This document shows positions 1 through 31,743 of a DNA stretch of 44,146 nt, piece by piece. The position numbers were made by a program, and so were the translations under genes. Position 1 is the stretch's first letter; each line of letters starts with the position of its first letter. Below the pieces are notes generated by a model, which saw nothing but the letters and a program-made list of their open reading frames with translations, had not been told where the DNA came from and made no database searches. This stretch comes from Myxococcales bacterium (GTDB lineage Bacteria; Myxococcota_A; UBA9160; SMWR01): positions 1-44,146 of the forward strand of contig JAOUNA010000006.1 of NCBI GenBank assembly GCA_029881215.1, read 5' to 3'.

Positions 1-68
1 CTGCGGCGCAGGGCGACACCCGCTGCGTGCAGCGCTTCGCGTCGCTCGCGCAGCTCCGCGGGCGTCAC
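1..68 (-). CDS. N-terminal fragment of an unidentified protein, possibly a LuxC-type acyl reductase
   Basis: A GTG at 66-68 (minus strand) overlaps the TGA of the LuxE-like gene as GTGA, and the frame stays open to the window edge. It gives about 22 residues beginning MTPAELRERREALHAAG. The same four-base overlap links the aminotransferase to the LuxE-like gene, so this looks like the third gene of one operon. LuxE-type acyl-protein synthetases act with a LuxC-type acyl reductase, which makes LuxC the first guess. The fragment itself is too short to show any domain, so the identity rests on context only. Confidence 0.4.
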   Translation of the reverse strand, partial: MTPAELRERREALHAAGVALRR

Positions 69-1183
69 GGAAGCTCGCCCGCCAGCATCGCGTCCGCGGC
101 AATCGAGCAGCCCCGCGCCTCGGCACCCGCATCGCGTCCGAGAATCTCGAAGCCGTCGCCGCTGCGCCGCCCCACATCGGCGCTCTGCAGCGCAGCCACG
201 CTGCCCGTGTTGGCGAGATCCACGATGACGACGCTGCCGGCCTGCCCTTCGGGCAGATCGTCTCCCGTGACCGGGTCGACGATGCGCACGCGCGCCCACG
301 GCGGACCGAGCTTGCGCCGCGGCGCGTCCGGCTCGAGCAACACCGAGTCGTAGAACTGACTGCCGAGCTCGGTCATGCCGTACTGGTTCACGATGCGCTG
401 CGGCGGCACGCCGAGCCGTCGCGCGATCCACGCGTACAGTGCGTCGCGCGCCAGCTCTCGCGAGTGGCCCTTGAAACCCCCGGTCTCCATCAGGCGCGAC
501 CCCACCGGCAGTGCGAAGCGCAGCGCGCGCGCCTCGAGCGCCTCGAGCAGATGCACCAGGGCGAAGGCGGTGCCGCACAGGACGCAGGGCGCGCCGCGGG
601 TCTCCGCGTCGCGCAGCCGCTCCAGGACGTGCTCGAGCTGCAGCACCCCGGCGCGCACCACGAACGCGCTGTCCGCGCTCCCGAGCGCGCGCAGCAGCGC
701 GCCGAACATGTGGGACAGCGAGGAGTCCGGCAGCTCCTGCGGCGCCGGCGCCAGGATCGTGAAGTCGACGCGCTCGCCCGCGGCCAGATCCGGAAGCACG
801 TAGCGCGCGAAGGTGGGCAGCAGGGACGCCTCGTAGATCTCGAGCGTGTCGAGGTGCAGCGCGCCGCGCGCAGCGGTCGCGGTGCCACTGGTGCGGAAGA
901 CGTGCTGCGTGCGCCCGAGCGGAAACGAGGCGAGCGCCACCTCCTTGAAGGCGCCGGTCGGCACCGGAGGGATCTCGCGCCACGAGGTCACGCGCTGCGG
1001 CGTTCGGTCGCGCCGCGCGCAGAAGCGCCGGTAGGCGACACAGTGCTCGTACTGGAAGGCGAAGAGATCCAGAGCCAGGGCGTCGAAGCGCGCTTCGTCG
1101 CGGCACCAGCCGGGCTCGCGCATCCAGGCGAGGGCGCGTGCGTCGAGCGCGGCGCGCGCCGGATCGGGACCCGGCGCGCTCAC
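65..1183 (-). CDS. LuxE-like acyl-protein synthetase
   Basis: This 372-residue protein looks like the LuxE/acyl-protein synthetase family, distant members of the adenylate-forming enzymes that activate a carboxylic acid and pass it to a protein thiol. Visible motifs are FRTSGTATAARGA (about residue 95, nucleotide-binding loop), GGFKGHSRE (about 235) and NQYGMTELGSQFYD (about 265, the YGMTE motif). The length matches LuxE (about 370). The start is GTG at 1183, overlapping the aminotransferase stop (GTGA), which indicates translational coupling. LuxE normally works with an acyl reductase (LuxC) to make an aldehyde. No luciferase genes are seen, so bioluminescence is not implied. The substrate cannot be read from the sequence. 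Confidence 0.8.
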   Translation of the reverse strand: MSAPGPDPARAALDARALAWMREPGWCRDEARFDALALDLFAFQYEHCVAYRRFCARRDRTPQRVTSWREIPPVPTGAFKEVALASFPLGRTQHVFRTSGTATAARGALHLDTLEIYEASLLPTFARYVLPDLAAGERVDFTILAPAPQELPDSSLSHMFGALLRALGSADSAFVVRAGVLQLEHVLERLRDAETRGAPCVLCGTAFALVHLLEALEARALRFALPVGSRLMETGGFKGHSRELARDALYAWIARRLGVPPQRIVNQYGMTELGSQFYDSVLLEPDAPRRKLGPPWARVRIVDPVTGDDLPEGQAGSVVIVDLANTGSVAALQSADVGRRSGDGFEILGRDAGAEARGCSIAADAMLAGELP

Positions 1184-2481
1184 GCCAGCACCTCGACGAT
1201 CCCGTCGATCGCGTCGGCCAGGATGCGCGCCTCGATCGTCAGCGGCGGCGTGAGCGAGAGCACGCGTCCGGCGTCGTCACACGGCAAGGCGATGATGCCG
1301 CGCTGCAGCGCGGCGTCGCAGGCCGCGCTCACGCGCTCCGCACTGTCGCACTCCACCCCGATCAACAGCCCGCGCCCGCGCACATCCGTGATGCCGCGAC
1401 GCCCGTCCAGGGCCCGCCGCAGGCGCGCCAGCGATGCGGCCCCGAGCTCCGCGGCGCGCTCCGCGAGCTTTTCCTCGTCGAGCACCGCGATCGATGCGAG
1501 CGCCGCGGCGCAGCCCGGTGGGTGACCGAGAAATGTCTGGGTGTGCAGCGACTCGCCCTCGGAGATCGGCCACGCGTCCATGATCTGCGCGCGCCCGAGG
1601 CACGCGGAGAGCGGCATGCCTGCAGCGAGGCCCTTGCCCACGCACAGCAGGTCGGGAATCACCTGCTCGTGGTCGCAGGCGAACCAGCGCCCCGTGCGGC
1701 CGAAGCCCGTGTAGATCTCGTCCGCGATCATCAGCCAGCCCTGCTCGTCGCACAGCGCGCGCAGCTCCGTCAGGAAGCCCTCCGGCGGGATGCGGTTGCC
1801 GCCGCGTCCCTGGATGGGCTCGACCAGCACCGCTCCGACCGGCGCACCCGCGTCGCGCGCGACGCGGCGCACAGCCTCGGCGTCGCCGTAGCGCGCGAAG
1901 CGCGTGGCGCCGGGCAGGCGCGCGGCAAACGGCTCGCGAAATCGCGCGCTCCAGGTCGCGTCGAGCGCACCCAGCGCCAGACCGTGGTAGGCGCCTTCGA
2001 AGGCGATCACGCCCGCGCGCCCGGTGGCCAGCAGCGTCGTCTTGAGGGCGGTCTCCACCGCGTCGGCGCCCGAGGACGACAGCACCGCACGCGACGCCAC
2101 GCCGCCGGGGTAATGGCGGGCGAGAGCCTCCAACAGCGTCACCTTCACCGCGGCCGGATGGACATCGCCCATGGCGTGCAGCAGCCGATCGGCCTGGTCG
2201 CTGACCGCGTCCACCACGCGCGGGTGGCCGTGGCCGGCGTTGGCAACGCCGAAGCCCGCCGTGAGATCCACGAAGCGGTTCCCATCCACGTCCCAGACGT
2301 TGGCGCCGCTGGCGCGCTCCCAGAAGATGGGGGGCGTCGGCGCGAGGCACGTCACGTTGCGGCTTTCCACGGCTGCCAGGCGCTCGGCGAGCGCACGGGA
2401 GCGCGGCCCCGGCACGGCCGTCAGGAGGGCAGGGGGCTGGCTCGCCGGCAGTGACACGGCGGCAAAGTGTAGCTGTACCAT
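1180..2481 (-). CDS. class III PLP-dependent aminotransferase (GabT/acetylornithine type)
   Basis: The 433-residue fold-type I aminotransferase has the family motifs in order: a glycine-rich cofactor region (SSSGADAVETALK), FEGAYHG, an acidic PLP contact (MIADEIYTGFGRTG), the Schiff-base Lys in VGKGLAAGMPLS (about K283) and THTQTFLGHPPGCAAAL-like C-terminal residues. Members transfer amino groups between omega-amines or aldehydes and keto acids. It is coupled by GTGA to the LuxE-like gene, which suggests it aminates an aldehyde made by LuxE/LuxC; that is inference. A GTG at 2490 is an alternative start. It differs from the separate bioA in this window, which carries the WHPYTAM signature that this one lacks. 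Confidence 0.85.
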   Translation of the reverse strand: MVQLHFAAVSLPASQPPALLTAVPGPRSRALAERLAAVESRNVTCLAPTPPIFWERASGANVWDVDGNRFVDLTAGFGVANAGHGHPRVVDAVSDQADRLLHAMGDVHPAAVKVTLLEALARHYPGGVASRAVLSSSGADAVETALKTTLLATGRAGVIAFEGAYHGLALGALDATWSARFREPFAARLPGATRFARYGDAEAVRRVARDAGAPVGAVLVEPIQGRGGNRIPPEGFLTELRALCDEQGWLMIADEIYTGFGRTGRWFACDHEQVIPDLLCVGKGLAAGMPLSACLGRAQIMDAWPISEGESLHTQTFLGHPPGCAAALASIAVLDEEKLAERAAELGAASLARLRRALDGRRGITDVRGRGLLIGVECDSAERVSAACDAALQRGIIALPCDDAGRVLSLTPPLTIEARILADAIDGIVEVLA

Positions 2482-2537
2482 GCGGAGCACGAGCGGGCGC
2501 CGCCCGCCCGCGCGCTGGCGGCGCCGTGGAGGACCCG

Positions 2538-6558: not shown

Positions 6559-9093
6559 ATGAACCGCCCGACCCCTCTGCGTCTGCGCAGCGCAATCGCC
6601 GTCGTCTTCGTGGGCTGGGCGGTCTTCGGGCTCGTGGCGTCGGCGACTCTCTTCTTCGCGCAAGACGCCCGCCCCTGGCATCCCTTCGTCGACACGCAGG
6701 TCGGGGCCCACGCGGTAATCGCGCGCCTCGCGCCGTCCGCACTCGGCAGCGCGGCGCAGGTGGGCGATGTGATTCTCGAGGTGAACGGCGCTCCGTACGG
6801 GGAGGTTCTGCAGCGCGGAAGCGGCTGGCTGCGCGCGGGCGTGCGAAATGCGTACCTGCTCGAGAAGCGCGACGGCAGCCGGGTCGTGGCGGCGCTCGCG
6901 CCGGAGCCCATCGGATGGGCGCTCACGCCGCGCGCCCTGCTGCTGCACGGCATGCTGCTGGCGGTTGCGCTGATCTACCTCGTCACGGGCGGCACCGCCT
7001 GGTGGCTGAAGCCCGAGCGCGCCGAGGGATGGGCGCTGCTGCTCTTCTGCTGCACGATGGCGGTGCAGCTCGCCAGCACGATGCCCAGCGACTTGGCTCC
7101 GTGGGGGTGGCAGCGCGCGGCCATCAATGCGCCCCTGATCGGCGCATCCCTCTTCTACCTGTTCACCACCTATCCCATCGAACCGCATTGGGTCGTGCGC
7201 TACCGGCGCGTCCAGCTCGTTCCCTACGCACTCGCGGCGGGGCTCGTCGCCCTCACGTTCTTCGGGTCCGCTCTCGGATTGCCCCGCGGAGCCGGACTCT
7301 GGATTTCCTACTGCTTCTCCCTGGGCTTGCTGATCGTCTCTCTCGCCGTCGTGGCGGTCGAGCGCTCGGGGCAGGGTGAGGGGCCGTTGCGCGACCGCGC
7401 GAGTCTCGTATTCCTGGCTGCGCTGCTCTCCTTCGCTCCCATCCTGGTGTTGTTCCTGGCCGAGTGGATCTTCCGCACGCCGTATCCCCATCAGATCGGG
7501 TTGCTCTGGACCTTCGTATTCCCCGTTTCCATGGGATACGGAATCGTGCGCCGGCAGCTCTTCGAGATCCGCGTCTTCGCGAAGTCGTCGGCGGCTTACG
7601 GTGCCGCGACGCTGGCGATCACCGGCGTGTTCGCCCTCTCCATCACCGCGGCCGATCTCGTGGTCTCGCGCCTGGATATCAGCTTTCGCTGGTTCCAGCT
7701 CACGTTCCTCTTCTTCGCGATCCTGGCTTTCAATCCGCTTCGCAACCGCCTGCAGGCCTTCGTGGACCGCGTGTTCGATCGGGACCGCGAGGCCTACCGC
7801 GTGGCGGTCCGCGAGATCTCGGAGGCGATGGTCTCGATGCTGTCCCTCTCCGAGATCGCGGATCGGATCCTGATCGCGCTGACGGACACCATGGGCGTCG
7901 ACCTCGCGATGGTCATGCTGCTCGACGAAAACGCCAAGAGCCTGCGGCCCGTGGCCTCGAGAGGCGAGTGGTGGGACGAGGCGCTCGCACTCGAGATCGG
8001 TACGGATCACCCGATCTGGAGGCATCTCTGGATGCGGCGCGAGGACTTGTCTCGCATGGATTTCGACGACGAGCCCGATGTCGAGATCCGCGAGGCCTGT
8101 CGCGACGTCTTCGACACGCTCGAAGTCGAGCTTCTGGTGCCGATCCTCTTCGGCGTCGATCTCCTGGGCGTGATCGCCGTCGGGCGCAAGCTCTCCGGCG
8201 ATCGTCTGGGCTGGGACGATCGCACCCTGCTGCGCACCCTCGCCAATCAGAGCTCGATCGCGATCGAAAACGCCAAGGCCTTCGACCAGATCGCCAAGCT
8301 CAACGAGACGCTCGAGGCGCGCGTCGAAGAGCGCACGGCCGAGCTGCGCGAAGCGCAGGTGCAGCTCTCGCAGGCCGAGAAGATGAAGTCTCTCGGTCAG
8401 CTCGTCGCGGGCGTCGCGCACGAGCTGAACAATCCGATCGGATTCGTGCACGCCAATCTCCAGCTGCTCGACGAATTCGTGAAGAAGCTCCTGGATGCCA
8501 AGGACAACGGCGAGGAGACGGAGAAGATCCGCGAGGCGATCAGCAAGCTGTTGATGCGAAGCCGCGAGGGCACCGAGCGGGTCAAGAAGATCGTGCAGGA
8601 TCTCCGCACCTTCTCGCGCGTGGATCAGGCCGACCTCCAGGACAGCGACCTGAACGAAGAGATCGAGCGGGCGCTCACCCTGATGGAGCCCCGCTTCAAG
8701 AGCGGGGTGAGCGTCGAGCGGGACTTCGGCGCGCTGCCGAGCGTGCGCTGCTATGCGGGGCAGCTGAACCAGGTGTTCCTGAATCTGTTGATGAACGCGA
8801 GCGATGCGATGCAGGGACGGGGAACCATTCGCATCCGCACACGCCGACACGGAGACGGCGTGCGCCTCGAATTCAGCGACGATGGTCCCGGCATCCCGCC
8901 CCAGGTGATCGGTCGCATCTTCGATCCCTTCTTCACGACCAAGCCGGTCGGCGTGGGGACGGGGCTCGGCCTCTCGCTCTCCCACAGCATCATCGAGCGG
9001 CACGGCGGAAAGTTCACCGTGGATTCCGAGGCTGGCGTGGGCACGACTTTCGCGATCGACCTGCCGCTCGACGTTCCTCCCGCGGCGCAGTGA
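6559..9093 (+). CDS. membrane sensor histidine kinase (PDZ-like, multi-TM, GAF, HisKA, HATPase)
   Basis: The 844-residue protein begins with a membrane segment and a PDZ-like periplasmic piece (SAAQVGDVILEVNGAPYGE, about 75-100). About eight hydrophobic segments follow (about residues 125-400), then a GAF-like domain (about 435-575), a coiled coil, and the H-box GVAHELNNPIGF with phospho-acceptor His621. The ATPase domain shows the N-box NQVFLNLLMNASDAMQ, DDGPGIPP, the F-box FDPFFTTKPVG and GTGLGLSLS. This architecture autophosphorylates in response to a membrane or small-molecule signal. No response regulator lies nearby, so it is an orphan kinase. Its position 4.5 kb from the pigment locus gives no evidence that it controls it. 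Confidence 0.9.
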   Translation: MNRPTPLRLRSAIAVVFVGWAVFGLVASATLFFAQDARPWHPFVDTQVGAHAVIARLAPSALGSAAQVGDVILEVNGAPYGEVLQRGSGWLRAGVRNAYLLEKRDGSRVVAALAPEPIGWALTPRALLLHGMLLAVALIYLVTGGTAWWLKPERAEGWALLLFCCTMAVQLASTMPSDLAPWGWQRAAINAPLIGASLFYLFTTYPIEPHWVVRYRRVQLVPYALAAGLVALTFFGSALGLPRGAGLWISYCFSLGLLIVSLAVVAVERSGQGEGPLRDRASLVFLAALLSFAPILVLFLAEWIFRTPYPHQIGLLWTFVFPVSMGYGIVRRQLFEIRVFAKSSAAYGAATLAITGVFALSITAADLVVSRLDISFRWFQLTFLFFAILAFNPLRNRLQAFVDRVFDRDREAYRVAVREISEAMVSMLSLSEIADRILIALTDTMGVDLAMVMLLDENAKSLRPVASRGEWWDEALALEIGTDHPIWRHLWMRREDLSRMDFDDEPDVEIREACRDVFDTLEVELLVPILFGVDLLGVIAVGRKLSGDRLGWDDRTLLRTLANQSSIAIENAKAFDQIAKLNETLEARVEERTAELREAQVQLSQAEKMKSLGQLVAGVAHELNNPIGFVHANLQLLDEFVKKLLDAKDNGEETEKIREAISKLLMRSREGTERVKKIVQDLRTFSRVDQADLQDSDLNEEIERALTLMEPRFKSGVSVERDFGALPSVRCYAGQLNQVFLNLLMNASDAMQGRGTIRIRTRRHGDGVRLEFSDDGPGIPPQVIGRIFDPFFTTKPVGVGTGLGLSLSHSIIERHGGKFTVDSEAGVGTTFAIDLPLDVPPAAQ

Positions 9094-10466: not shown

Positions 10467-10485
10467 CGCGCCGGGCGCCGGCGCG
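10467..10485. terminator. GC-rich hairpin between convergent genes
   Basis: A perfect 8-bp stem with a GCG loop, CGCGCCGG-GCG-CCGGCGCG, sits 4 nt after the bioA stop and before the stop of the convergent PEGA-like gene. It has no T-run, so it could be an attenuating structure rather than a classic intrinsic terminator. Confidence 0.45.
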
Positions 10486-10523
10486 GCCCGCGAGAGGCGG
10501 GTGCGTCGGCCGCGCCGGAGGCG

Positions 10524-10919
10524 TCAGCGCTGGGTGTCCTCGGGAGGCGGTGCTTCGGGATCGTGCTCGGCCTCGAGCGTGAGCTCGCGATCCACGCCGA
10601 CCCGAACCAGCTCCACGCAGACGTTCTCCGGATGCAAGCGGGTCCTGCCGTCCTCGCCGACACGCGGCTCGAGCACGATCAGCTGCGGCTCGTAGCCGGG
10701 CCCCTTCACGTAGATCTGGTGGGGCTCGTCGATGCGCAGCTCGACCGTGTCGGTGCCCGCGTCGAGCGCCTCGCGATCCACATAGATGGTGACGCGCTCG
10801 GGCACGCAATCGAGGGCGATGCGCTGCTTGGCCGCGCAGGCGAGATGCGGCGCGAGCAGCAGCGCCACCCAGATGCCGGCGCGGATTCTGCGCGCGGCGC
10901 AAGCACGCGGGTGCTGCAC
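10524..10919 (-). CDS. secreted protein with PEGA-like domain
   Basis: The 131-residue product starts at GTG 10919 with a good GGGAGGA ribosome site. A TAGCTT -10-like hexamer (10939-10944) lies 19 nt upstream of the start. A signal peptide (RIRAGIWVALLLAPHLACA) is followed by a beta-rich segment, VTIYVDREALDAGTDTVELR and QIYVKGPGYEPQLIVLEP. This resembles PEGA repeats (VxVDGxxL...PGYEP), which are surface or periplasmic carbohydrate/ligand-associated modules. The C28 context (PHLAC) is only a weak lipobox, so cleavage by signal peptidase I is equally possible. The acidic C-terminal tail is disordered. Its function is unknown. Confidence 0.6.
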   Translation of the reverse strand: MQHPRACAARRIRAGIWVALLLAPHLACAAKQRIALDCVPERVTIYVDREALDAGTDTVELRIDEPHQIYVKGPGYEPQLIVLEPRVGEDGRTRLHPENVCVELVRVGVDRELTLEAEHDPEAPPPEDTQR

Positions 10920-11008
10920 GTAGATCCTCCCGACCGCAAAGCTAGCACGCGCCGCGCGCGAGGCCGCTCGCCACGCGCGGCAGCTCCGCTGCGGCGAAGC
11001 GGCGATGC

Positions 11009-11014
11009 TACCCT
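11009..11014 (+). promoter_or_regulatory. -10-like TACCCT, 8 nt before the DAO-family start
   Basis: TACCCT ends 8 nt before GTG 11023, with no ribosome-binding site between. If it is a -10 element, transcription would begin at or next to the start codon (leaderless). It belongs to a recurring arrangement in this window. Confidence 0.4.
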
Positions 11015-11022
11015 GCTCGATC

Positions 11023-12306
11023 GTGACGGAGCGCGCCAATGTCCTGATCGTCGGCGGTGGCATCATCGGCACGAGCGTCGCGTGGGGCCTGGCGCGGCGC
11101 GGCGTGCCGGACGTCGTGGTGGTCGATCTCGACCTTTCCGGCATCTACGCGTCCTCCGAGCTCAACGCCGGCGGTGCGCGCGCCACCTGGTGGCATCCCG
11201 TCAATATCGACAGCTGCCGGGAAACGCTGCATTTCTTCGGCGCGCACCGCGACGAGTTCGGATTCCGGCAACGCGGCTATCTGTGGCTCTACGCCGACCG
11301 CGACCTCTACGCGCGCGCCCTCGACGTGATGCGGCTGCAGAATGACCGGGGCCTGGGCGTCGAGGCATTGCGCGGCGGAGAACTGAGGGAGCGATTTCCG
11401 CTGATCGACCGCAACCTCGACGAGCTCGTGGGCGCGACGTTCTCGCCATCCGATGGCCTGGTCAACCCAAACGCGGTGCGCCAGTGGTATCGGCGCGAGG
11501 CGGCGGGCATGGGGGTGCGCTTCCGCAACCGCCACTACGTCTCCGGGGTGTCCACGGCGCGCGTCGCGGGATCGGGCGGAGCGCTCCGCCGCGTGGCGGA
11601 CGTCGACGTGATCGAGGTGGCCAAGCAAGGCGTCACGGACGATGCGGGCGTGCTCCGCGAGATCCTCGTGACGCACCACGTTCCGCAGGCGGTGCGCTGC
11701 GGCGAATCGCGCATCGCCTGCGACGTGCTCGTCAACTGCCTGGGCGCCTGGTCGCCGATCTTCTCCTCCAAGATCGGAATTTCCGACGTCACCGAACCGG
11801 TGCGCCGCCAGATCTGTCTGGTCGACGTCCGGGCGCGCGACCTCGCGCCCGACGTCTCGCTCGACGCGCTGGGCATGATCGTCGACGCCTCGGATCTGTA
11901 CTTCCATCCGGAGGGCCCGCACGTGCTCGCGGGATATTCGATCCCCGAAGAATCCCCCGGCTTCGACTTCGACTACGACGGAGAGGAATTCTTCGAGCGG
12001 CACGTGTGGCCGCGCCTCGCGCACCGCTGCAGCAGCTTCGATCGCTGCGCGCACGTGCGGGGTTGGTCGGGCCTGTACGCGGTGACGCCGGATCGGAGCG
12101 GCATTGCGGGCGCCGTCGGCGGATTCTCGAATCTCTTTGAAGCGCACTCCTTCACGGGCCGAGGGGTCATGCAGTCCTACGCGGTGGGTCAGGCGCTGGC
12201 GGAGCTGATCACCGATCACGCCTACGGCGCACTCGACCTCGGTCCGCTCACGCGTCAGCGCTTCGAGGACCCCGGGCGCTGGGTCCGCGAGGAGCTGCAT
12301 ATTTGA
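11023..12306 (+). CDS. FAD-dependent oxidoreductase, DAO (sarcosine oxidase/D-amino acid dehydrogenase) family
   Basis: The 427-residue flavoprotein begins with a Rossmann dinucleotide fold (VLIVGGGIIGTSVAWGLARRG, then an acidic strand end VVDLD). It ends with the DAO-type C-terminal motif GGFSNLFEAHSFTGRGVMQS, where the flavin is closed in. SSELNAGGARATWWHP near residue 45 is the loop that often carries or neighbours the covalent-flavin site. Such enzymes oxidise amino or N-methyl amino acids, or glycerol-3-phosphate-like substrates; the substrate here is unknown. GTG 11023 gives a compact start just before the Rossmann strand; ATG 11005 is an alternative. The 3' end overlaps the convergent SRPBCC gene by 59 bases. 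Confidence 0.85.
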   Translation: MTERANVLIVGGGIIGTSVAWGLARRGVPDVVVVDLDLSGIYASSELNAGGARATWWHPVNIDSCRETLHFFGAHRDEFGFRQRGYLWLYADRDLYARALDVMRLQNDRGLGVEALRGGELRERFPLIDRNLDELVGATFSPSDGLVNPNAVRQWYRREAAGMGVRFRNRHYVSGVSTARVAGSGGALRRVADVDVIEVAKQGVTDDAGVLREILVTHHVPQAVRCGESRIACDVLVNCLGAWSPIFSSKIGISDVTEPVRRQICLVDVRARDLAPDVSLDALGMIVDASDLYFHPEGPHVLAGYSIPEESPGFDFDYDGEEFFERHVWPRLAHRCSSFDRCAHVRGWSGLYAVTPDRSGIAGAVGGFSNLFEAHSFTGRGVMQSYAVGQALAELITDHAYGALDLGPLTRQRFEDPGRWVREELHI

Positions 12307-19294: not shown

Positions 19295-20094
19295 TCTCCG
19301 GCCCCCTCCTCGAGCCCTTTCGAGATCGATTCGCGCAGTTCTGCGCTCAACCTTCGCGCCGCCAGCGGTGAGGAAACTCCGCTCCCCCGGATCGATTGCG
19401 CCGAGATCGGCTCCCGCAGCCGGACCGTAACATGGATCGGATCGTCGGGCAGATCGTACCACTTCCAGCGCTTCCACAGGGCCGGGGGATCGCAGCGGAT
19501 GACGACCGGGAGCACGTCGCACCCGACGCTGAGCGCAATGCGCGCCGCGCCGCGCTGGAACGGACCCAGGCCGCCGACCGGAGAACGGGTTCCCTCCGGA
19601 AAGACCACCAGCGAACGCCCGCTCCGGAGCCGCTCGCTGCACTCCCGAACCAGCTCCGGCCCCGCGTCGCTTCGCACGTAGCCCGCCGCACGAACCAATC
19701 CGCGCAGCACCGCGTTCCTCGCGCGCACCGGATTCACGATGCAGTCGGCCTGGGGCATCAGGGAACACAGGACGACGAAATCGATCAGGCTGGGGTGGTT
19801 GGCGACGACCAGGTGTGGCCCGTTCCGCTGCAGCGGGTCGATGTCGACGAAGCGCACGCGCACGATGCCCGCCGCGGTCACGATGCGCAGATAGAGCTGG
19901 GCCGCGCGGTGCAGGATGCGCTGTGCCTCGAGATCCGCGGCGCCGCCCCGGCGTCGCGCGCCCGAGCCGAGCCAGCGCGACCCGAACAGCAGCGGCAACA
20001 GGCCCAGCGCGAGCGCGCCGAACACCGCCGCGGCGAACGTCGCTCGAGCGATGCGCCAGAGCGCACGGAGGGGGGGTGTCGTTCGCTGGCTCAT
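19261..20094 (-). CDS. PlsC-like 1-acylglycerol-3-phosphate acyltransferase family protein (copy 1)
   Basis: The 277-residue protein has an N-terminal hydrophobic anchor, the acyltransferase motif VANHPSLIDFV (HX4D), the acceptor motif VVFPEGTRSPVG and downstream PVVIRCDPPALWK. PlsC-like proteins are regular members of APE loci, where they are thought to put the finished acyl chain on a lipid or glycerol acceptor. It is the first gene of a minus-strand operon running to 13601. Its start (ATG 20094) is divergent from the ammonia-lyase gene, 69 bases away. A second copy lies at 38497-39276, again just ahead of an ACP gene. Confidence 0.85.
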   Translation of the reverse strand: MSQRTTPPLRALWRIARATFAAAVFGALALGLLPLLFGSRWLGSGARRRGGAADLEAQRILHRAAQLYLRIVTAAGIVRVRFVDIDPLQRNGPHLVVANHPSLIDFVVLCSLMPQADCIVNPVRARNAVLRGLVRAAGYVRSDAGPELVRECSERLRSGRSLVVFPEGTRSPVGGLGPFQRGAARIALSVGCDVLPVVIRCDPPALWKRWKWYDLPDDPIHVTVRLREPISAQSIRGSGVSSPLAARRLSAELRESISKGLEEGAGDWARPKHSNKS

Positions 20095-20118
20095 CCCCGG
20101 GGGACCAAGAATCGCTCC

Positions 20119-20124
20119 ATTCTA
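20119..20124 (-). promoter_or_regulatory. -10-like TAGAAT of the minus-strand pigment operon
   Basis: TAGAAT (5 of 6 consensus matches, minus strand) lies 24 nt before ATG 20094 in the divergent gap. With TAGTAT (20151-20156) on the plus strand it suggests a bidirectional promoter. No -35 is evident. Confidence 0.4.
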
Positions 20125-20150
20125 CCGCAAGCCCGTCTGGAGGACCGGGC

Positions 20151-20156
20151 TAGTAT
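20151..20156 (+). promoter_or_regulatory. -10-like TAGTAT, 7 nt before the ammonia-lyase start
   Basis: TAGTAT ends 7 nt before ATG 20164. The only purine-rich stretch (GGAGGA, about 20140) is too far upstream for a ribosome site and would not be transcribed from this -10. It is a candidate leaderless promoter. Confidence 0.4.
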
Positions 20157-20163
20157 CCGGCCG

Positions 20164-21738
20164 ATGGTGGTCGAAAGCACGCAAGCCGCTGGAGATTCCC
20201 GCGCATGTGAGCCGGTCCACGTGATCGGACTGCGCAGCTTCGCCGTCCCGGACGTGCTCGCGATGGCGCGCGGCGAGGTCCGGGTGGAGCTCTGCGACGA
20301 TCCCGCGTATCGCGCGCGCCTGGCGCGGGGACGCACCGCCGTCGAGCGCGCGCAGCAGATCGGCGACACCGTATACGGCGTCACGACCGGTGTCGGCGCG
20401 TCCAGCCACGTGGTGATTCCGCTCGAGCTGCGCGAGGACCTCGCCGCCAACTTGATGCGCTTCCACGGCTGCGGCACCGGGCGCGCGCTCAGCGAGCTCG
20501 AGTCCGCCGCGGTCGTGGCGGTGCGGCTCGTCTCGCTGGCGCGCGGCTACTCCGGTGTGCGCGAGACGCTCCTGCAGCGCCTCTGCGATCTGCTCAACGC
20601 GCGCCTCCTGCCGCGCATTCCCGAGGAGGGATCCGTCGGCGCGAGCGGCGATCTCACGCCGCTGTCCTATCTCGCCGCACTGCTCGCGGGCGAACGCGAG
20701 GCGACGCTGCGCGGCCGGGAGCTGACGGCGGCGCAGGGTCTCGCCGAGATCGGAGTCGAGGCCCTCGCCCTGGCGCCGAAGGAGAGCCTGGCGCTCATGA
20801 ACGGCACCGCCGTGATGACCGCCATCGCTTGCGTCACCTGGGAGCGCGCCGCGCGCCTCGCGCGCCTCGCCGCGGCCATCACCTCCATCGTCGTCGACGT
20901 GACCCGGGGCAACCGCGGCCACTTCGATGCGCGCATCTTCGAGCTGAAGCCGCATCCCGGCCAGCAGCGCTGCGCGGAGTGGATTCGCGCGGATCTCGAG
21001 CTGGATCCCGGCAGCGAGGCGCCCGCTGCGGCGCGGCTGCAGGATCGCTATTCGCTGCGCTGCGCGCCGCACGTCATCGGCGTGCTCGTGGATGCGCTCG
21101 AGGAGGCGCGCCGCATCCTCGACGTCGAGATCAACAGCGTCAACGACAATCCGCTGGTGGATCCCGATACCGGGGACGTGCTGCACGGGGGCAACTTCTA
21201 TGGCGGCCACGTGTGCTTCGCGATGGACGGGCTCAAGGCATCGCTGGCCAGCGTGGCGGACCTGCTCGATCGGCAGCTCGCCCTGCTGTGCGTGCCCGAG
21301 ACCAGCGCGGGCCTCTCGCCGAATCTCGTGGCGGCGTCGAGTCCGTCCCATCACGGCTTCAAGGCCATGCAGATCAGCGCCTCGGCGCTGACCGCGGAAG
21401 CCCTCAAGCTCACCATGCCCGCGGCTGCGTTCAGCCGCAGCACCGAGTCCCACAACCAGGACAAGGTGAGCATGGGAACCATTGCCGCGCGCGACTGCCG
21501 CAGGGTGGTGGAGCTCACCGAGACGGTTGGATCGATCGCACTGCTGGCCGCGTGCCAGGCGCTGGATCTTCGCGACGGCGGCAGCGGGGCGCGGCGGGCG
21601 CGGGCGCTGCACGAGGCGGTGCGCAAGGCGGCGCCGATGGTCGCCGAGGATCGGCGGCTGGACGGTGACATCGCTCGCGTGCTCGAGATGCTGCGTGGCG
21701 ACGCCCTGCCCCTGGGTTCGTATTCGTCCGCGCGATGA
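20164..21738 (+). CDS. aromatic amino acid ammonia-lyase (HAL/PAL/TAL family)
   Basis: The 524-residue lyase carries the MIO tripeptide Ala160-Ser161-Gly162 in EEGSVGASGDLTPLSYLAALL, the catalytic Tyr71 in VYGVTTGVG, LMNGTAVMTA, LQDRYSLRCAPH, INSVNDNPL, HGGNFYGGH and NQDKVSMGT. The family removes ammonia from His, Phe or Tyr to give a 2-enoic acid. In the pigment context the expected product is cinnamate or p-coumarate, the aryl starter. The substrate-selectivity pair reads Phe100-His101 (RFHGCGTG), unlike Ser-His of histidine or His-Leu of tyrosine lyases, so the substrate is open. A LolA-exporter block follows on the same strand. Confidence 0.9.
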   Translation: MVVESTQAAGDSRACEPVHVIGLRSFAVPDVLAMARGEVRVELCDDPAYRARLARGRTAVERAQQIGDTVYGVTTGVGASSHVVIPLELREDLAANLMRFHGCGTGRALSELESAAVVAVRLVSLARGYSGVRETLLQRLCDLLNARLLPRIPEEGSVGASGDLTPLSYLAALLAGEREATLRGRELTAAQGLAEIGVEALALAPKESLALMNGTAVMTAIACVTWERAARLARLAAAITSIVVDVTRGNRGHFDARIFELKPHPGQQRCAEWIRADLELDPGSEAPAAARLQDRYSLRCAPHVIGVLVDALEEARRILDVEINSVNDNPLVDPDTGDVLHGGNFYGGHVCFAMDGLKASLASVADLLDRQLALLCVPETSAGLSPNLVAASSPSHHGFKAMQISASALTAEALKLTMPAAAFSRSTESHNQDKVSMGTIAARDCRRVVELTETVGSIALLAACQALDLRDGGSGARRARALHEAVRKAAPMVAEDRRLDGDIARVLEMLRGDALPLGSYSSAR

Positions 21739-21805
21739 CACGGCTGCGGGAAACCAGCGTCGATCTCGAGGTCCCCTTCCACGCTGTCGACCTGAGGAGC
21801 ATCGC

Positions 21806-22510
21806 ATGGCGCGGGCACACTTCTCCTGGAAATCCCGCATGAGATCCGCGATCGCCTGTGCGCTTGGTGCGATTCTCTCGAGCAGCGCCCTCTGCGCGCA
21901 GGCGCAGCTGCACGATGCGTCGCGGTCGCTCACGCTCGAGCAGCTGCTGCGCTCGATGGCCACGAGCGCGGGAGTCTCCGCGCAGTTCGAGGAGAGGAAG
22001 GAGCTCGCCCTGCTGAGCGCGCCTCTCGAGAGCCGCGGACGCCTCTATTTCGAGCCTCCGGATCGCTTCGCGCGCTTCACGACCGGGCCCGCGGTCACCG
22101 CGCTGGTGATCGACGGGGAGCGCGTGCACTTTCGCGAGAGCTCGGACGCCGAAGCGCTCGATCTGTCCGGCAATCCCATGACGCGGGCCTTCGTGGAGAA
22201 TTTCATCGCCCTCTGGAGCGGCGACCGAGAGCGCCTCGAGCGCCTCTACGACGTGACGCTGGCCGGCGATCGCGCACGCTGGGAGCTCTCCCTGGCGCCG
22301 CGCGCGGGTCCGCTGGATCGCTTCATCGAGCGCATCACGCTGCGCGGCAGGGAGGCGGCGCTCACGCAGATGATCGTGCGCGAAACGGACGGCGATCGCA
22401 CCGTGACCGAATTCGCCGCCATGCGGCTCGACCGCGCGTTCAGCGCCGACGAACGCCAACAGATCTTCGCGCGGGGCGTGCCCCTCGACGAGCCCGCCGA
22501 GGCGCGGTGA
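21806..22510 (+). CDS. LolA-like outer-membrane lipoprotein carrier
   Basis: The 234-residue periplasmic protein has a Sec signal peptide (basic N-terminus, hydrophobic core, cut near CAQA/QLHD). The LolA-type body shows SLTLEQLLRSMATSAGVSAQFEERKEL, a beta-rich middle (ESRGRLYFEPPDRF) and QMIVRETDGDRTVTEFAAMRLD. APE loci carry a dedicated LolA-like protein thought to carry the hydrophobic product across the periplasm. The start is ATG 21806 with GAGGAG 7 nt upstream. Its stop overlaps the next start as GTGA, coupling it to the exporter. Confidence 0.85.
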   Translation: MARAHFSWKSRMRSAIACALGAILSSSALCAQAQLHDASRSLTLEQLLRSMATSAGVSAQFEERKELALLSAPLESRGRLYFEPPDRFARFTTGPAVTALVIDGERVHFRESSDAEALDLSGNPMTRAFVENFIALWSGDRERLERLYDVTLAGDRARWELSLAPRAGPLDRFIERITLRGREAALTQMIVRETDGDRTVTEFAAMRLDRAFSADERQQIFARGVPLDEPAEAR

Positions 22511-24879
22511 GTCGCCGGAGAGCGCTCGCGCTCGCCGCGGCAGCGGTCGCCATGCTGGTGTACTGCGCGCTGCATCTGCGCGTGGGAACGGATCTGACGC
22601 ACTTCATGCCCGACGGAAGCCGATCCGAGATCGCCGTGATTTCGAGTCGTCTGACCGATTCCCCCTTCACCCGCGCGATGGTGCTCTCGGTCGAGGGGCC
22701 GGATACGCAGGCGGCGGTGGCGGCCGCGTCGCAGCTGGCGGAGCTGCTTCGGGGTCACGCGGAGGTCGCCTGGGTGCGCTCCGCGGTGGGAGAGGCGGAT
22801 CTCGAGGCGCTCTACGCGCTCTACTTTCCCCGGCGCCATTATTTCCTGTCCGACCGGCCCGAGCGCGAGATCCCGGCGCTGCTCTCGGAAGCCTCGCTGC
22901 GGGAAAGCGCGAGCAGGCTGCGCCAGCGGCTCGCGTCGCCTGCCTCGAGCTTCGTCGAGCGACTGGCTGCGGCGGATCCGATCGGTGCCTTCGAGCGCAT
23001 TGCGCGCCGCTTCCGATCCGAGGAGCCCGCGCTGCGCGTGGTGCACGGGCAATTCGTCACGAGCGACGGCCGGCACGCGATCGTTCTGGCCGGAACGCAC
23101 GCCTCGGCATTCGATTCGGGAGCGCAGACGCGCCTGCTCGACGACGTATACGCGGCGTTCGCGGCGCTCGACGCCGAGAGCGGCGGCGCGCTGCGCCTCG
23201 AGATGAGCGGCGCGAACCGCTTCGCGGTCGAAGCAGAGCGCAGCATGAAGCGCGATGTCTACCGCATCGCGGCCTGCTCCTTCATGGGCGTCGCGCTGCT
23301 GTTCTTCGTCTTCGTCGCCTCGCTTCGCGGCTTCCTGGTGGTGTCCGTGCCCCCGCTGGGCGGCATGCTGATCGCGACCACGGCCGGGGTGGCCCTGTTC
23401 GGAAACATCGACGGTCTCACCATGGTGTTCGGCGCCTCGCTGATGGGCATCGCGATCGACTACTCCAATCATCTGCTCATCCATCACGGCCTCGCGCAGC
23501 CCGCGGAGTCACCGCGCGAGACGGTGCGGCGCATCCGCCCGAGCATCACCCTGGGTGCGCTCACCACCATCGCGAGCTTCGCGGGTCTCGCCCTCACGGC
23601 GTTTCCCGCCTTCCGCGAGATGAGCTTCTTCGCCGCTGTCGGCGTGGCGGCGGCTCTCGTGCTGAGCCTCCGCGTGCTGCCCGACCTGGTGGCGACGGTT
23701 CCGCCGCTGCCGCAGCGCACGCGGATCGTGGCGGCGCGCCTCGGCGCGCTCCTGACGCGGATCGGAGCGCTGCCGCGCGCCTTCCTGCTGGCGCCGCTCG
23801 CCGTCGGCGCGCTGGCGGCCCTCGCGCTGCCGCGCCTGGAGTGGTCGGACGACATGTCGCAGCTCACGCGCTTCGATCCCGAGTTCGTGGCCGAAGATCT
23901 GCGCGTTCGCGAGCGCACTTCGAGTCTCGACAACACCCGCTTCGTGCTGGGCCTGGCGCGGGACGGCACGGCGGCCCTCGCCCTGAACGAAGCGATCCAC
24001 GAGCGATTGCAGGGCGCGATCGAATCCGGCGCGCTCGAGGGGCAGCGCTCGCTGCACGGACTGCTCTGGTCCGAAGCGCTGCAGCGGCGCAACGCGGCGG
24101 TGGTCTCCGCGCAGGCGGGGCTCGAAGAGCGAGTCGAAGCCGTGTTCACGAGCGAGGGATTCCGACCCGGCGCATTTCGCGAATTCGAGGCGTTTCTCGC
24201 CGCCGCCCCGGCCGCCGCTCCGCTGCGGCTCGAGGATCTGGCGCAGAGTCCGCTGCGCGATCTGCTGGCGCCCTTCGTGTTTCGGCTCGGCGACGAGATC
24301 GCCGTCGTCACCTATCTGCGCGGGCTGCGCGCGCCCGAAGCGGTGCGCGCGGCGCTCGCGGATCTCGGCGGCGTGCACCTGCTCGACCAGCGGCGCTTCG
24401 TGAACGACATCTACCGCGAATTTCGCGAAACCAGTCTGCGACAGATGCTCGTCGGGGGCGCGCTGGTGCTGCTGCTCCTCGGTCTGCGCTATCGCGCCTG
24501 GAGGCCGGTCGTCGCGGCCTTCTTCCCCTCGGCGCTCGTCGCCCTGATCGTGCTCGCCATGCTCGCGCTCTTCGGCGTGCAGGCCAACCTGCTGCACGTC
24601 ATGAGCCTCGTCATGGTGATGGGCATGGGCGTGGATTACGGCGTATTCCTGGTGGACAGCGCGGGGCATCGGGACACGTTCGGCGCGACGATGCTGAGTC
24701 TGCTGATGTCCTGCCTCACCACCGCCTTCGTCTTCGGCACGCTCGCCTTCTCTTCGCAGCCCGCGCTGCAGGCGATCGGCGTGACCACGGGCGTCGGAAT
24801 CCTGCTCTCCTATCTGCTCGCGCCGGTCACCCTGATCGCGCTCGAGGTCGGGCGGGGTGGGCGTGCGGCGCCCCACTAG
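22507..24879 (+). CDS. MMPL/RND-family exporter of the pigment locus
   Basis: The 790-residue inner-membrane protein has an N-terminal TM segment, a large periplasmic domain (about 30-255), about five TM segments (about 255-420), a second TM and periplasmic domain and a closing TM bundle (about 645-785). MGIAIDYSNHLLIHHG and MVMGMGVDYGVFLVDS are the two copies of the RND proton-path Asp motif (GIDY/GVDY). This matches the COG4258 predicted exporter of APE loci. It would export the aryl polyene lipid, handing it to the LolA-like and lipoprotein partners. The start is GTG 22507. Confidence 0.9.
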   Translation: MSRRRALALAAAAVAMLVYCALHLRVGTDLTHFMPDGSRSEIAVISSRLTDSPFTRAMVLSVEGPDTQAAVAAASQLAELLRGHAEVAWVRSAVGEADLEALYALYFPRRHYFLSDRPEREIPALLSEASLRESASRLRQRLASPASSFVERLAAADPIGAFERIARRFRSEEPALRVVHGQFVTSDGRHAIVLAGTHASAFDSGAQTRLLDDVYAAFAALDAESGGALRLEMSGANRFAVEAERSMKRDVYRIAACSFMGVALLFFVFVASLRGFLVVSVPPLGGMLIATTAGVALFGNIDGLTMVFGASLMGIAIDYSNHLLIHHGLAQPAESPRETVRRIRPSITLGALTTIASFAGLALTAFPAFREMSFFAAVGVAAALVLSLRVLPDLVATVPPLPQRTRIVAARLGALLTRIGALPRAFLLAPLAVGALAALALPRLEWSDDMSQLTRFDPEFVAEDLRVRERTSSLDNTRFVLGLARDGTAALALNEAIHERLQGAIESGALEGQRSLHGLLWSEALQRRNAAVVSAQAGLEERVEAVFTSEGFRPGAFREFEAFLAAAPAAAPLRLEDLAQSPLRDLLAPFVFRLGDEIAVVTYLRGLRAPEAVRAALADLGGVHLLDQRRFVNDIYREFRETSLRQMLVGGALVLLLLGLRYRAWRPVVAAFFPSALVALIVLAMLALFGVQANLLHVMSLVMVMGMGVDYGVFLVDSAGHRDTFGATMLSLLMSCLTTAFVFGTLAFSSQPALQAIGVTTGVGILLSYLLAPVTLIALEVGRGGRAAPH

Positions 24880-25492
24880 GCGCGCTGCGGCGCTGGGCGC
24901 GATCGGGCCCTTGCTGTGGGTCGCCTGCGCGCATCTCGTTCCGGGCACGGGTCGGCTCGCCGAGTGTCCGGGCGCGCTGCGCGCCACGCAGGAGATTCCG
25001 GAGGATCTGCGCCTGGATCAGCGCATGCGGATTCGCGCCAAACGCATCGATGTCTCGATGCGAATCGTCGTCGAGAAGCGGGGCGGGCGCCTGGTCGTGA
25101 TCGGCCTGGACCCGCTCGGCGCGGTGCTGTTCAGCGTGGTCCAGACGGGCGTCGAGGTGGAGATCGAGGCGTTGCCGCGCGCGGTCGCGCCCGTGCCGCC
25201 GCTCAACGTGCTGCGCGATCTGCACCGGGTTCGCTTCCTGAGCGCGGACGTTCCCCCCGACGCCAGCGGCCGTGCGGAGAGCGAGCGCGACGGAACGCGC
25301 ATCACCGAGGAGTGGATCGGCGGCGCGCTGCGGCTGCGGCGCTTCGCGCGGGTGCGGGGCGCGCCGCGCGGCGAGATCGTCGTCGCATTCGGCGCGGCGC
25401 CATCCGGCGGCATCGCGCGGGCGCGGATCGAGAACGGCTGGTGCGGCTACACGGCGCAGATCGACACCTTTGTGGAGGAGTCCCTGCCGTGA
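24857..25492 (+). CDS. DUF3261-like lipoprotein of the export block
   Basis: The 211-residue product starts at GTG 24857, overlapping the exporter gene by 23 bases. A short hydrophobic N-terminus ends in WVACAH, where Cys24 may be lipidated (lipobox imperfect: Trp at -3). The body is beta-rich (RLVVIGLDPLGAVLFSVVQTG, VEVEIEALPR) and resembles DUF3261, the lipoprotein always found next to the LolA and MMPL genes of APE clusters. It probably works in outer-membrane insertion of the product. It is coupled to the next gene by GTGA. Confidence 0.75.
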   Translation: MGVRRPTRRAAALGAIGPLLWVACAHLVPGTGRLAECPGALRATQEIPEDLRLDQRMRIRAKRIDVSMRIVVEKRGGRLVVIGLDPLGAVLFSVVQTGVEVEIEALPRAVAPVPPLNVLRDLHRVRFLSADVPPDASGRAESERDGTRITEEWIGGALRLRRFARVRGAPRGEIVVAFGAAPSGGIARARIENGWCGYTAQIDTFVEESLP

Positions 25493-26007
25493 ACCGGATG
25501 GCCGCGCCCCGCTCGGTGCTCGATCTGGTGATCCGCACCCTCCTGGCGACGCTCTGGTTCGCCTGCGCGTTCTTCCTGCTGATTCCCGCGAGCTTGCTGT
25601 GGCTGGCGGGCGCCGACCTCGTGCCGCCTCCGGGCGCGACGCGCTGGGTGGGCGCGCTGCTGATCGCCGGCGCTCACCTGGCGCTCGTGTTCCCGATCGC
25701 GGCGTTCGTGCAGCGCGGGCGCGGCACCCACGCACCCTTCGATCCGCCGCGGCGGATCGTGCTCGGCGGTCTGTATCGCTGTGTGCGCAATCCGATGTAT
25801 CTGCTGTACGTGGTGATCATGCTGGGCGAAGCCGTCCTGTACCGGTCGCTGCTGCTGCTGGTCTACGCCGGCGCCTTCTGGGGACTGGCGCACGCCTACG
25901 TCGTCGGCCACGAAGAGAAGGCGCTGCGCCGGCGCTTTGGCGCGGGCTACGACGCCTACTGCCGGCGCGTCGGTCGCTGGCTGCCGCGCCTGCGCGGCGG
26001 GCGCTGA
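25489..26007 (+). CDS. ICMT/PEMT-like membrane methyltransferase
   Basis: The 172-residue protein has about four TM segments and the isoprenylcysteine-methyltransferase-like core GGLYRCVRNPMYLLYVVIMLGEA plus VGHEEKALRRRFGAGYDAYCRRVGRWLPR. These are the SAM-binding and active-site motifs of bacterial ICMT/PEMT-like enzymes. It may O-methylate the aryl head group or the carboxyl end of the polyene in the membrane. APE loci usually carry a soluble or membrane methyltransferase, so the role is plausible but inferred. The start is GTG 25489 with GGAGGAG upstream; ATG 25498 is an alternative. Confidence 0.75.
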   Translation: MNRMAAPRSVLDLVIRTLLATLWFACAFFLLIPASLLWLAGADLVPPPGATRWVGALLIAGAHLALVFPIAAFVQRGRGTHAPFDPPRRIVLGGLYRCVRNPMYLLYVVIMLGEAVLYRSLLLLVYAGAFWGLAHAYVVGHEEKALRRRFGAGYDAYCRRVGRWLPRLRGGR

Positions 26008-26014
26008 GTCGCGC

Positions 26015-27463
26015 TCAATCCAGGGGCGCCTCGCTGCGGCGCAGCTTTCCGCTCGAGGTGTGCGGCAGGGCATCCACGGCGATGAACTCGCGGGGGATCT
26101 TGTAGGCGGGCAGGCGTGCGCGGCAGTGCGCGAGCAGGTCGGCACGGCTCGCGGGGTGTGCCGCGTTCTCGGCGACGAACTGCGCCACGGGAATCTGGCC
26201 GAGCTGGGCGTGCGGGCGCGCGGAGACGCGGCTCTCGCGCACCTCCGGGTGGGCGTCGAGCACCGCCTCGACCTCCTCGGCGAAGAACTTCATGCCCGCC
26301 ATGCTGATTCGGTTGCTGCGCCGGCCGGCGAGATGCAGATCCCCGTCCGCATCGAACCAGCCCTGATCGCCGGTGCGGAAGCCATCGGGCTGCAGGATCT
26401 CGCGCGCCGGAAGCCAGGGGTCCAGGTAGGCGTCGAGCATGCCGGGGCCCCGGATGCAGATCTCCCCGGTGTGCTGCGCCGACGTGCAGCCGGAGACGGG
26501 CCGGCCGTCCTCGCCGCGCAGCCACACCTGGTAGTCCGGCAGCGGCCGGCCGAGAGACGCGGGCTTGCGCGCCGCGTGTTCCAGATTGGCGACGGGAAGC
26601 CCCACCTCGATGATGCCGAGCGCCTGCGCCACGGGAGAGCCGAAGCGGCTCGCGAAGCGCTCGGCCACGGCGCTCTGCAGTCCGTCCGCCGTCGAGATGG
26701 CGCGGCGCAGCCCGGGAAGCTGCAGGCCGGACACGTCCTTGGCCAGCAACTGGTAGTGATGCGGAGAGGCGTACAGCAGCGTGGCGCGCTCGCGGCTGGC
26801 GAGCTCGAGGATGGGGCGCGCGAGCCCGCTGGCGGGCAACAGGATCGAGGCGCCCTCGCGCAGATACAGCAGGATGGAGACCACGAAGTGGTGCGCCATC
26901 GGCAGCAGCCACAGCACGCGGTCCTGCGGCCCGATCTCGAGCGCGCGGTTCGCCGCCGTCAGGCGCGCGTCGATGGCAGCGTGGCCGAGCAGCACGCCCT
27001 TGCGCCGATTCGTCGTGCCCGACGTGAAGCGCAGATACGCCGGCTGCAGCGCGCGAAAGCTGCGGTCGCCCGCGCCGTCGACCGCGCCCGCGTCGGGGTA
27101 GGAGTCGAGGCGGAAATTCGGATCGTCCTGCTCGACTCGGTGGTGCAGGCGCGAGCGCCGCACGAGATCGTCGAGCACCGCGCCGCGGTGATCGTCGGGA
27201 ATCGGGGCGAGGCAGGCATCGGCCGCCAGGATGCCCAGAGCCAGCTCGATGAAGCCCCGGCCCTGGCGCGCCTGCAGGCCGCAGCGATCTCCCGCCCGCA
27301 CGCCTTCGGCCGCGAGCCGTTTCGCGTGGGCTTCGAAGCTCGCGACGAGCTCGGCGTAGGACACGGTCCGGGTTCCGCCCCGGCGATCGTCGAGCAGGAG
27401 CGCCGGGTGCGCCGGCCGGCGCGCCGCCTGCGCGCGAATGGCATCGATGACGGTCACGGCCAC
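26015..27463 (-). CDS. acyl/aminoacyl-AMP ligase 2 (adenylate-forming enzyme)
   Basis: This 482-residue adenylate-forming enzyme has RFTSGTTNRRKGVLLGH (P-loop), the core motifs LPMAHHFVVS and QALGIIEVGLP, GEICIRGPGML, FRTGDQGWFDADGDLHLAGR, RISMAGMKFFAEEVE and the catalytic C-terminal Lys in PHTSSGKLRRSE. It is a stand-alone ligase, shorter than the usual 500-550 residues and lacking a fused carrier. It is the last gene of a four-gene minus-strand unit with an ACP, a condensation-like protein and a flavoprotein, so it probably loads that ACP. The substrate is unknown. GTG 27463 has GAGGAG just upstream and overlaps the flavoprotein stop by 10 bases. Confidence 0.85.
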   Translation of the reverse strand: MAVTVIDAIRAQAARRPAHPALLLDDRRGGTRTVSYAELVASFEAHAKRLAAEGVRAGDRCGLQARQGRGFIELALGILAADACLAPIPDDHRGAVLDDLVRRSRLHHRVEQDDPNFRLDSYPDAGAVDGAGDRSFRALQPAYLRFTSGTTNRRKGVLLGHAAIDARLTAANRALEIGPQDRVLWLLPMAHHFVVSILLYLREGASILLPASGLARPILELASRERATLLYASPHHYQLLAKDVSGLQLPGLRRAISTADGLQSAVAERFASRFGSPVAQALGIIEVGLPVANLEHAARKPASLGRPLPDYQVWLRGEDGRPVSGCTSAQHTGEICIRGPGMLDAYLDPWLPAREILQPDGFRTGDQGWFDADGDLHLAGRRSNRISMAGMKFFAEEVEAVLDAHPEVRESRVSARPHAQLGQIPVAQFVAENAAHPASRADLLAHCRARLPAYKIPREFIAVDALPHTSSGKLRRSEAPLD

Positions 27464-28755: not shown

Positions 28756-28763
28756 CGCGGCGC

Positions 28764-30110: not shown

Positions 30111-30111
30111 G

Positions 30112-30372: not shown

Positions 30373-30379
30373 GCGCAGC

Positions 30380-30385
30380 AGGGTA
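30380..30385 (-). promoter_or_regulatory. -10-like TACCCT, 7 nt before the ACP2 start
   Basis: TACCCT (minus strand) ends 7 nt before GTG 30372. It is the same hexamer as at bioA and the DAO-family gene. Candidate leaderless promoter of the second ligase-ACP unit. Confidence 0.4.
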
Positions 30386-30456
30386 GCAGCCGGCCGCGCG
30401 GGATGGCACATGGAGAGAGTGGCGGAACGGCTGAAGGGGCGGAACATTCTGTGCCC

Positions 30457-31725: not shown

Positions 31726-31743
31726 TGATGCGGTCCGCGCAGC

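Follow-up and report, generated by a model that had tools for sequence, protein, structure and literature searches.

Queuosine is a widespread wobble modification. The product of QueE, 7-carboxy-7-deazaguanine (CDG), is a carboxylic acid, and preQ1 (7-aminomethyl-7-deazaguanine) is the corresponding aminomethyl compound. An acid-to-aldehyde-to-amine logic, with a class III aminotransferase (AT) acting last, is used by ArgB-ArgC-ArgD and LysZ-LysY-LysJ, and EhpF probably activates a heteroaromatic acid that is then reduced to the aldehyde. In the known route to preQ1, as outlined in PMC5372724, QueC and then QueF convert CDG through the nitrile preQ0; genome-based calls of queuosine makers and salvagers rest on these two enzymes, according to PMC11130926. 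Here we describe a three-gene operon at the start of a 44,146-nucleotide contig of a Myxococcales bacterium (assembly GCA_029881215.1, contig JAOUNA010000006.1; the whole contig is referred to as the window), encoding an AT, a LuxE-like synthetase and the beginning of a LuxC-like reductase. Its conservation, partners and distribution make it likely that this operon is a nitrile-free preQ1 synthesis module that would use CDG as substrate and bypass QueC and QueF. Across most of the phylum, the trio seems to stand in for the standard two-enzyme nitrile route.

Compared with QueC and QueF, the trio has the same proposed start (CDG) and end (preQ1), with FolE, QueD/QueE, Tgt and QueA retained, and would differ in proceeding without a nitrile: its ANL synthetase, thioester reductase and aminotransferase are unrelated to the PP-loop nitrile synthase and T-fold nitrile reductase that they would replace. 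It shares with the LuxC-LuxE fatty acid reductase of bioluminescence (7xc6) both protein families, the adjacency of the two genes and an aligned reductase cysteine; unlike the luminous pair, it lies far under the equivalog cut-offs, differs at Glu233 of the synthetase and has an aminotransferase joined to it. The fold predicted for the synthetase is shared with aryl-acid adenylating enzymes of the PaaK type, EhpF among them, which are 12–16% identical to it and have other operon partners. In ArgB-ArgC-ArgD and LysZ-LysY-LysJ the acid is activated by phosphorylation, with a kinase and a reductase unrelated to the trio's enzymes, and the trio AT lies below the argD and LysJ cut-offs. The trio resembles ArgB-ArgC-ArgD in logic and LuxE-LuxC in chemistry, and would add a variant to the known ways of making queuosine.

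Organization and conservation of the operon

The three genes lie on the minus strand and are coupled by two GTGA overlaps, as an earlier note on this DNA, made from the sequence alone, had seen. The junctions read GCGTGAGC at the AT stop and LuxE-like start and CCGTGACG at the LuxE-like stop and third-gene start. The operon comprises the following features:

1180–2490, minus strand: AT, a class III pyridoxal phosphate (PLP) aminotransferase (PF00202, 338.9 bits against a cut-off of 30.5), proposed to convert 7-formyl-7-deazaguanine to preQ1
1633–1635, minus strand: codon of the predicted PLP lysine of the AT, Lys286 (numbering from GTG 2490), lysine in all 92 loci with an aligned site among the 105 examined
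1180–1183, minus strand: GTGA overlap of the AT stop (TGA) and the LuxE-like start (GTG), read from the sequence
65–1183, minus strand: LuxE-like (PaaK-type ANL) synthetase of 372 amino acids (PF04443 and AlphaFold2 model), with a proposed role in adenylating CDG and carrying it as a thioester
485–487, minus strand: codon of Glu233 of the synthetase in METGGFKG, invariant, a candidate guanine-edge contact
107–109, minus strand: codon of Cys359 of the synthetase, motif RGCS near the C-terminus, the proposed acyl-carrying cysteine
65–68, minus strand: GTGA overlap of the LuxE-like stop (TGA) and the third-gene start (GTG), read from the sequence
1–68, minus strand: first 22 codons of the putative LuxC-like reductase, assigned by N-terminal likeness and by LuxC at the same place in relatives

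Three starts are candidates for the AT (ATG 2481, GTG 2490 and GTG 2457), and the choice among them is unsettled. The draft genome to which the window belongs, as contig C115, measures 3.43 Mb in 375 contigs and is 88.96% complete. Because this genome is fragmented and the third gene reaches the contig end, that gene is cut after 22 in-frame codons, VTPAELRERREALHAAGVALRR. The LuxC N-termini of relatives are similar, the best being that of locus L050, VSPETLRKRREALRAAGEVLRR, and of the 136 loci compared, a set in which some genomes are represented more than once, 37 outscore at least 99% of shuffles.

The trio was followed through 105 loci, made up of the window's locus, 80 from one genome-contig scan, 4 others and 20 fetched. 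All 105 contain LuxE, 100 contain LuxC and 92 contain the AT; the loci without LuxC include the window itself, owing to the contig end, and L076. All three sites are aligned in 86 loci, invariably on one strand, with the order AT-LuxE-LuxC in 85 and LuxE-LuxC-AT in one. A LuxE homologue is found in 90 of 97 related genomes (the window's own genome, family, order and class, and seven more of the phylum). This breadth, together with the shared strand and order across loci, argues that the trio is not a chance arrangement.

In relatives the gene after LuxE is a LuxC-like reductase by its match to PF05893 (141.7 bits in L040 and 216.8 bits in L110, cut-off 21), bearing out the earlier guess that the third gene is LuxC, and the window's truncated copy is predicted to be the same. 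LuxC does not reach the luminous LuxC equivalog NF052251 (56.1 bits against a cut-off of 750). The predicted catalytic cysteine is preserved: DQRGCVS of L110 aligns with DQQACFS of the solved LuxC 7xc6_A, and the cysteine is kept in all 97 alignable copies from the 105 loci.

The LuxE-like synthetase and the aminotransferase

The LuxE-like synthetase matches PF04443 over residues 13–362 with 68.9 bits (cut-off 24.9) and does not reach the luminous LuxE equivalog NF052244 (53.3 bits against a cut-off of 550). Its AlphaFold2 model, with a predicted local distance difference test score of 87.7, is closest among PDB folds to the phenylacetate-CoA ligases PaaK1 and PaaK2 (Z 26.5–25.3, ~300 residues, root-mean-square deviation 2.9–3.1). 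Further matches are small- and aryl-acid ligases and EhpF of phenazine synthesis (3hgv/3l2k, Z 21.8), at the low identity given above. The luminous LuxE of 7xc6 is absent from the 50 fold matches listed in each of two comparisons; it is the sole sequence match. The shared fold, as seen in the predicted model, says nothing on the substrate.

Two residues of the synthetase stand out. Cys359 is present in all 104 alignable LuxE copies among the 105 loci and invariant in the 14 rows of alignment A2, which leaves out L074. It may be equivalent to the LuxE acyl cysteine; the alignment to the LuxE of 7xc6 stops at residue 338, short of this position. Glu233 is invariant in METGGFKG, where the solved luminous LuxE reads IITGGGWK, and may be the residue that recognises the guanine edge.

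The AT lies below the curated cut-off of all 25 best NCBIfam models (69 matched), the best match giving 318.9 bits against 639, and none of the known amino-acid aminotransferase families (GabT, ArgD, BioA, LysJ and others) has its cut-off reached among these 25. No known amino-acid enzyme is therefore its clear orthologue. The AT of L108 belongs to a different class III branch, ~33% identical to the trio ATs. A second class III aminotransferase, 26–28% identical to the trio AT, is located ~2.7 kb upstream of the trio in L042, L044, L046 and L048.

Distribution of the trio relative to QueC and QueF

Across 377 Myxococcota genomes, the LuxE model matches 299 at E ≤ 1e-15, and removal of nine weak matches (E > 1e-45) leaves 290 strong ones. 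QueF is detected at E ≤ 1e-8 in 59 genomes, comprising 47 strong matches (at least 76 bits) and 12 of 55–64 bits in families f22 and f24, and QueC, at a threshold of E ≤ 1e-10, likewise in 59. The figures of 290 and 47 and those by family were tallied manually from search tables. No genome combines strong LuxE with strong QueF, all 47 strong QueF matches falling among the 87 genomes that lack strong LuxE, and QueC occurs in 6 of the 290 strong-LuxE genomes against 53 of the 87 others (Fisher p of 4e-36 for QueF and 2e-34 for QueC, ignoring the kinship of the genomes). Counted by family, strong QueF is found in none of the 44 families with LuxE and in 12 of the 17 remaining ones (p 3.6e-9).

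Among the 97 relatives, QueF above 100 bits occurs in a single genome, G091, which is without LuxE, and QueC of at least 70 bits in five (G091, G096 and the LuxE-positive G004, G013 and G038). Neither QueC nor QueF was found in the window's genome (G000). The other 71 of 72 QueF matches (21–32 bits, profile positions 1–61 only) were set aside as FolE, an assignment checked in G000, where the protein scores 258.4 against 181.6 for TIGR00063, and in L112, L113 and L114, whose proteins are 73–76% identical to the G000 FolE. Weak QueC matches (20–32 bits, short and mostly in long frames) were taken as other PP-loop ATPases; the G095 match, the one sequence read, is presumably LarE-like by its motifs.

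Nine genomes with the trio lie outside the Myxococcota: two Verrucomicrobia, two Omnitrophota, UBP4, two Gemmatimonadetes, one Bacillota and one labelled Gammaproteobacteria. Strong QueF is found in none of the nine, with no match above 26.4 bits; QueC is absent from five, and the L108 genome is without both. As a separate observation, two queC genes and queE-like and queD-like genes are clustered in G158 (L235, 6743–10406), a genome that also has LuxE, and possibly form a 7-deazaguanine DNA modification set.

Queuosine genes in the genome and beside the trio

The window's genome encodes FolE, a QueE-like protein and Tgt, and a QueD-like fragment adjoins FolE. The best PDB relatives of the QueE-like protein are QueE (E 9e-12 to 1e-7). 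Tgt scores 417 bits against the bacterial enzyme and 328 bits against eukaryotic QTRT1, and keeps Cys158 and Val233 (Z. mobilis numbering, mapped by motif), which PMC3660597 gives as preQ1 determinants. Among the 97 relatives, Tgt is found in 97, QueA in 85 and a QueE-type protein of at least 50 bits in 89 (manual count). Many genomes of the class carry two Tgt genes, only one of them beside queA. Both genes of G041 and both of G095 (L241–L244) keep the cysteine of the DEC-type motif, and the valine of GG.SVGE is present in three of the four, with leucine in the queA-linked G041 copy. Two PTPS/QueD-like genes lie side by side adjoining folE in L112 (1929–2743, minus strand) and L114 (1938–2847, minus strand).

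Direct adjacency of que genes and the trio is seen in 3 of the 105 loci (L101, L102 and L108), the window not being among them. In the Verrucomicrobia metagenome-assembled genomes (MAGs) of L101 and L102, queE lies directly upstream of AT-luxE-luxC, and the L102 QueE passes TIGR04349 (303.7 against 300). The Bacillota MAG of L108 carries, on one strand, queD (6668–7165), queE (7169–7819), luxE (7917–9041), luxC (to 10471) and the AT (10475–11809); its QueD is above the QueD equivalog cut-off (101 against 89.25) and its QueE under that for QueE (265 against 300). The Omnitrophota genes after LuxC (GH57-type, YchF, aldolase and DnaJ) give no pathway hint.

Proposed route to preQ1

Since CDG is an acid and preQ1 an amine, LuxE, LuxC and an aminotransferase together are what a conversion of acid to amine without a nitrile needs. 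From the observed gene content, order and partners, the exclusion, the residues and the fold, we infer a substrate, an intermediate, a product and a reaction for each enzyme of the trio. FolE, QueD and QueE would convert GTP to CDG as usual. The LuxE-like enzyme would activate the CDG carboxylate with ATP to CDG-AMP and transfer the acyl group onto Cys359, from which the LuxC-like enzyme would take it onto its own cysteine and reduce it, using NADPH, to 7-formyl-7-deazaguanine. This aldehyde would then be turned by the AT into preQ1, to be inserted into tRNA by Tgt and matured towards queuosine by QueA. The trio would thereby replace both QueC, which makes the nitrile from the acid, and QueF, which reduces the nitrile to the amine, and at loci without an adjacent AT another cellular transaminase would have to act. 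In the open-licence literature, we found no report of LuxE or LuxC in queuosine synthesis and no paper on 7-formyl-7-deazaguanine.

It is likely that in most Myxococcota, and in some scattered members of the Verrucomicrobia, Gemmatimonadetes, Omnitrophota and Bacillota, the queuosine base is made through 7-formyl-7-deazaguanine, a metabolite not previously known, with enzymes of the luciferase-operon type and a transaminase in place of nitrile chemistry, and that these organisms are now misread as preQ1 salvagers or as queuosine-less. If so, most of the sampled Myxococcota (290 of 377, by strong LuxE) would shift from salvager or unknown to maker, a function would be given to uncharacterised LuxE-LuxC-aminotransferase operons, and a base aldehyde would be added as an intermediate. 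The case would also be a clean non-orthologous displacement of two unusual enzymes.

Counter-evidence and alternative explanations

Several observations weigh against the proposed preQ1 route. The genomes are related, and the Fisher p-values consequently overstate independence and are not for use at face value; in addition, the cuts between strong and weak matches were chosen after the scores had been seen. Without those cuts, QueF occurs in 12 of 299 LuxE-positive and 47 of 78 LuxE-negative genomes, and QueC in 9 of 299 and 50 of 78, respectively. QueC is present in six strong-LuxE genomes (G004, G013, G038, G158, G208 and G224), and a QueF-like gene of 55–64 bits in nine, from families f22 and f24. 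Of the 12 QueF-like proteins in this range, which are of ~200 amino acids, four were read (G122, G172, G179 and G230; L232, L233, L234 and L245), two of them from strong-LuxE genomes; all four have EFTF.GV against EFTCVCP in the G091 QueF and are without its cysteine, which we take to be the nitrile-attacking residue. A divergent QueC-like gene (PF06508, 100–113 bits; L158–L161) is found in four of the nine genomes outside the phylum, of Verrucomicrobia and Omnitrophota. These four include both Verrucomicrobia with the queE operon and are the main loose end; L160, the single one compared with the QueC equivalog, falls far short of its cut-off (71.7 against 150.3). In the window's genome, 88.96% complete as noted, QueA was not found, and the QueE-like protein is under every curated QueE cut-off (best 67.1 bits). 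LuxE-LuxC occurs without an adjacent AT in Bradymonadales-sized genomes and in the Gemmatimonadetes-type L104, L105 and L110, as in several Myxococcota loci. Finally, a vinylogous aldehyde may be an uphill substrate for transamination unless Tgt draws the reaction on.

The earlier note had read the operon as an acid-to-aldehyde-to-amine route that could supply an amine acceptor to a pigment locus. Neither of the two outcomes that this note had named as refuting it came about, the third gene being related to LuxC in the relatives and the AT no clear amino-acid orthologue, so the chain logic stands; a fatty or aryl amine purpose finds no such support. A role of the trio in making such an amine, as a lipid or pigment building block, is quite unlikely, although fatty-acid reduction is what LuxE and LuxC are known to do and the same window contains a pigment-type locus with genes for an aromatic amino acid lyase, a halogenase-like enzyme and a ketosynthase. 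Almost every member of the class has the trio, which is also spread through much of the phylum, and its neighbours conserved in the class are folK and cysH on one side and SUF genes on the other, with que genes elsewhere, not lipid or pigment genes, so that the idea of a pigment-locus supplier is abandoned. The best fold matches, moreover, are small- and aryl-acid ligases, both proteins miss the luminous cut-offs widely (53.3 of 550 for LuxE, 56.1 of 750 for LuxC), and an amine of this kind leaves the queE/queD operons and the exclusion of QueF and QueC unexplained. A supply of aldehyde for light was considered and rejected: the luciferase-like gene (PF00296; L088, 292–1332; its cluster in 15 loci) lies several genes away and is not constant.

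Salvage of preQ1 from the surroundings, with the trio an unrelated, vertically inherited operon and the exclusion a phylogenetic coincidence, would draw on the relatedness that inflates the statistics, and Tgt and QueA without QueC and QueF form the salvage pattern in PMC5372724. We consider it very unlikely, as a QueE-type gene of at least 50 bits is present in 85 of the 90 LuxE-positive relatives, whereas pure salvagers are without QueE according to the same paper. FolE and QueD-like genes are, furthermore, adjacent in L112 and L114, and queE/queD adjoin the trio in two other phyla. The same CDG chemistry could also yield an aldehyde or amine for another 7-deazaguanine end product, such as a DNA modification or a secondary metabolite. 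The lineages with LuxE-LuxC but no AT, and the QueC-like genes alongside the trio in some genomes, point that way; the near-universal co-occurrence with Tgt and QueA and the loss of QueF fit housekeeping preQ1 better and make this reading highly improbable.

Neighbouring genes and other loci of the window

On the other side of the AT in the window lie FolK, CysH and a fumarylacetoacetate-hydrolase-like gene. Downstream of LuxC in many class members (L088, L042, L040 and others) are an Rrf2-type regulator, whose cluster is found in 33 loci, and SUF iron-sulphur genes; upstream of the trio in these class members are folK, cysH and a GAF histidine kinase.

The pigment-type locus spans positions 19396–34564 of the window and includes the following genes:

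19396–21738, plus strand: aromatic amino acid lyase
22507–24879, plus strand: MMPL transporter
24916–26007, plus strand: methyltransferase
29719–31725, plus strand: tryptophan-halogenase-like flavin adenine dinucleotide (FAD) enzyme
31688–33301, plus strand: amine-oxidase-like FAD enzyme
33359–34564, plus strand: ketosynthase

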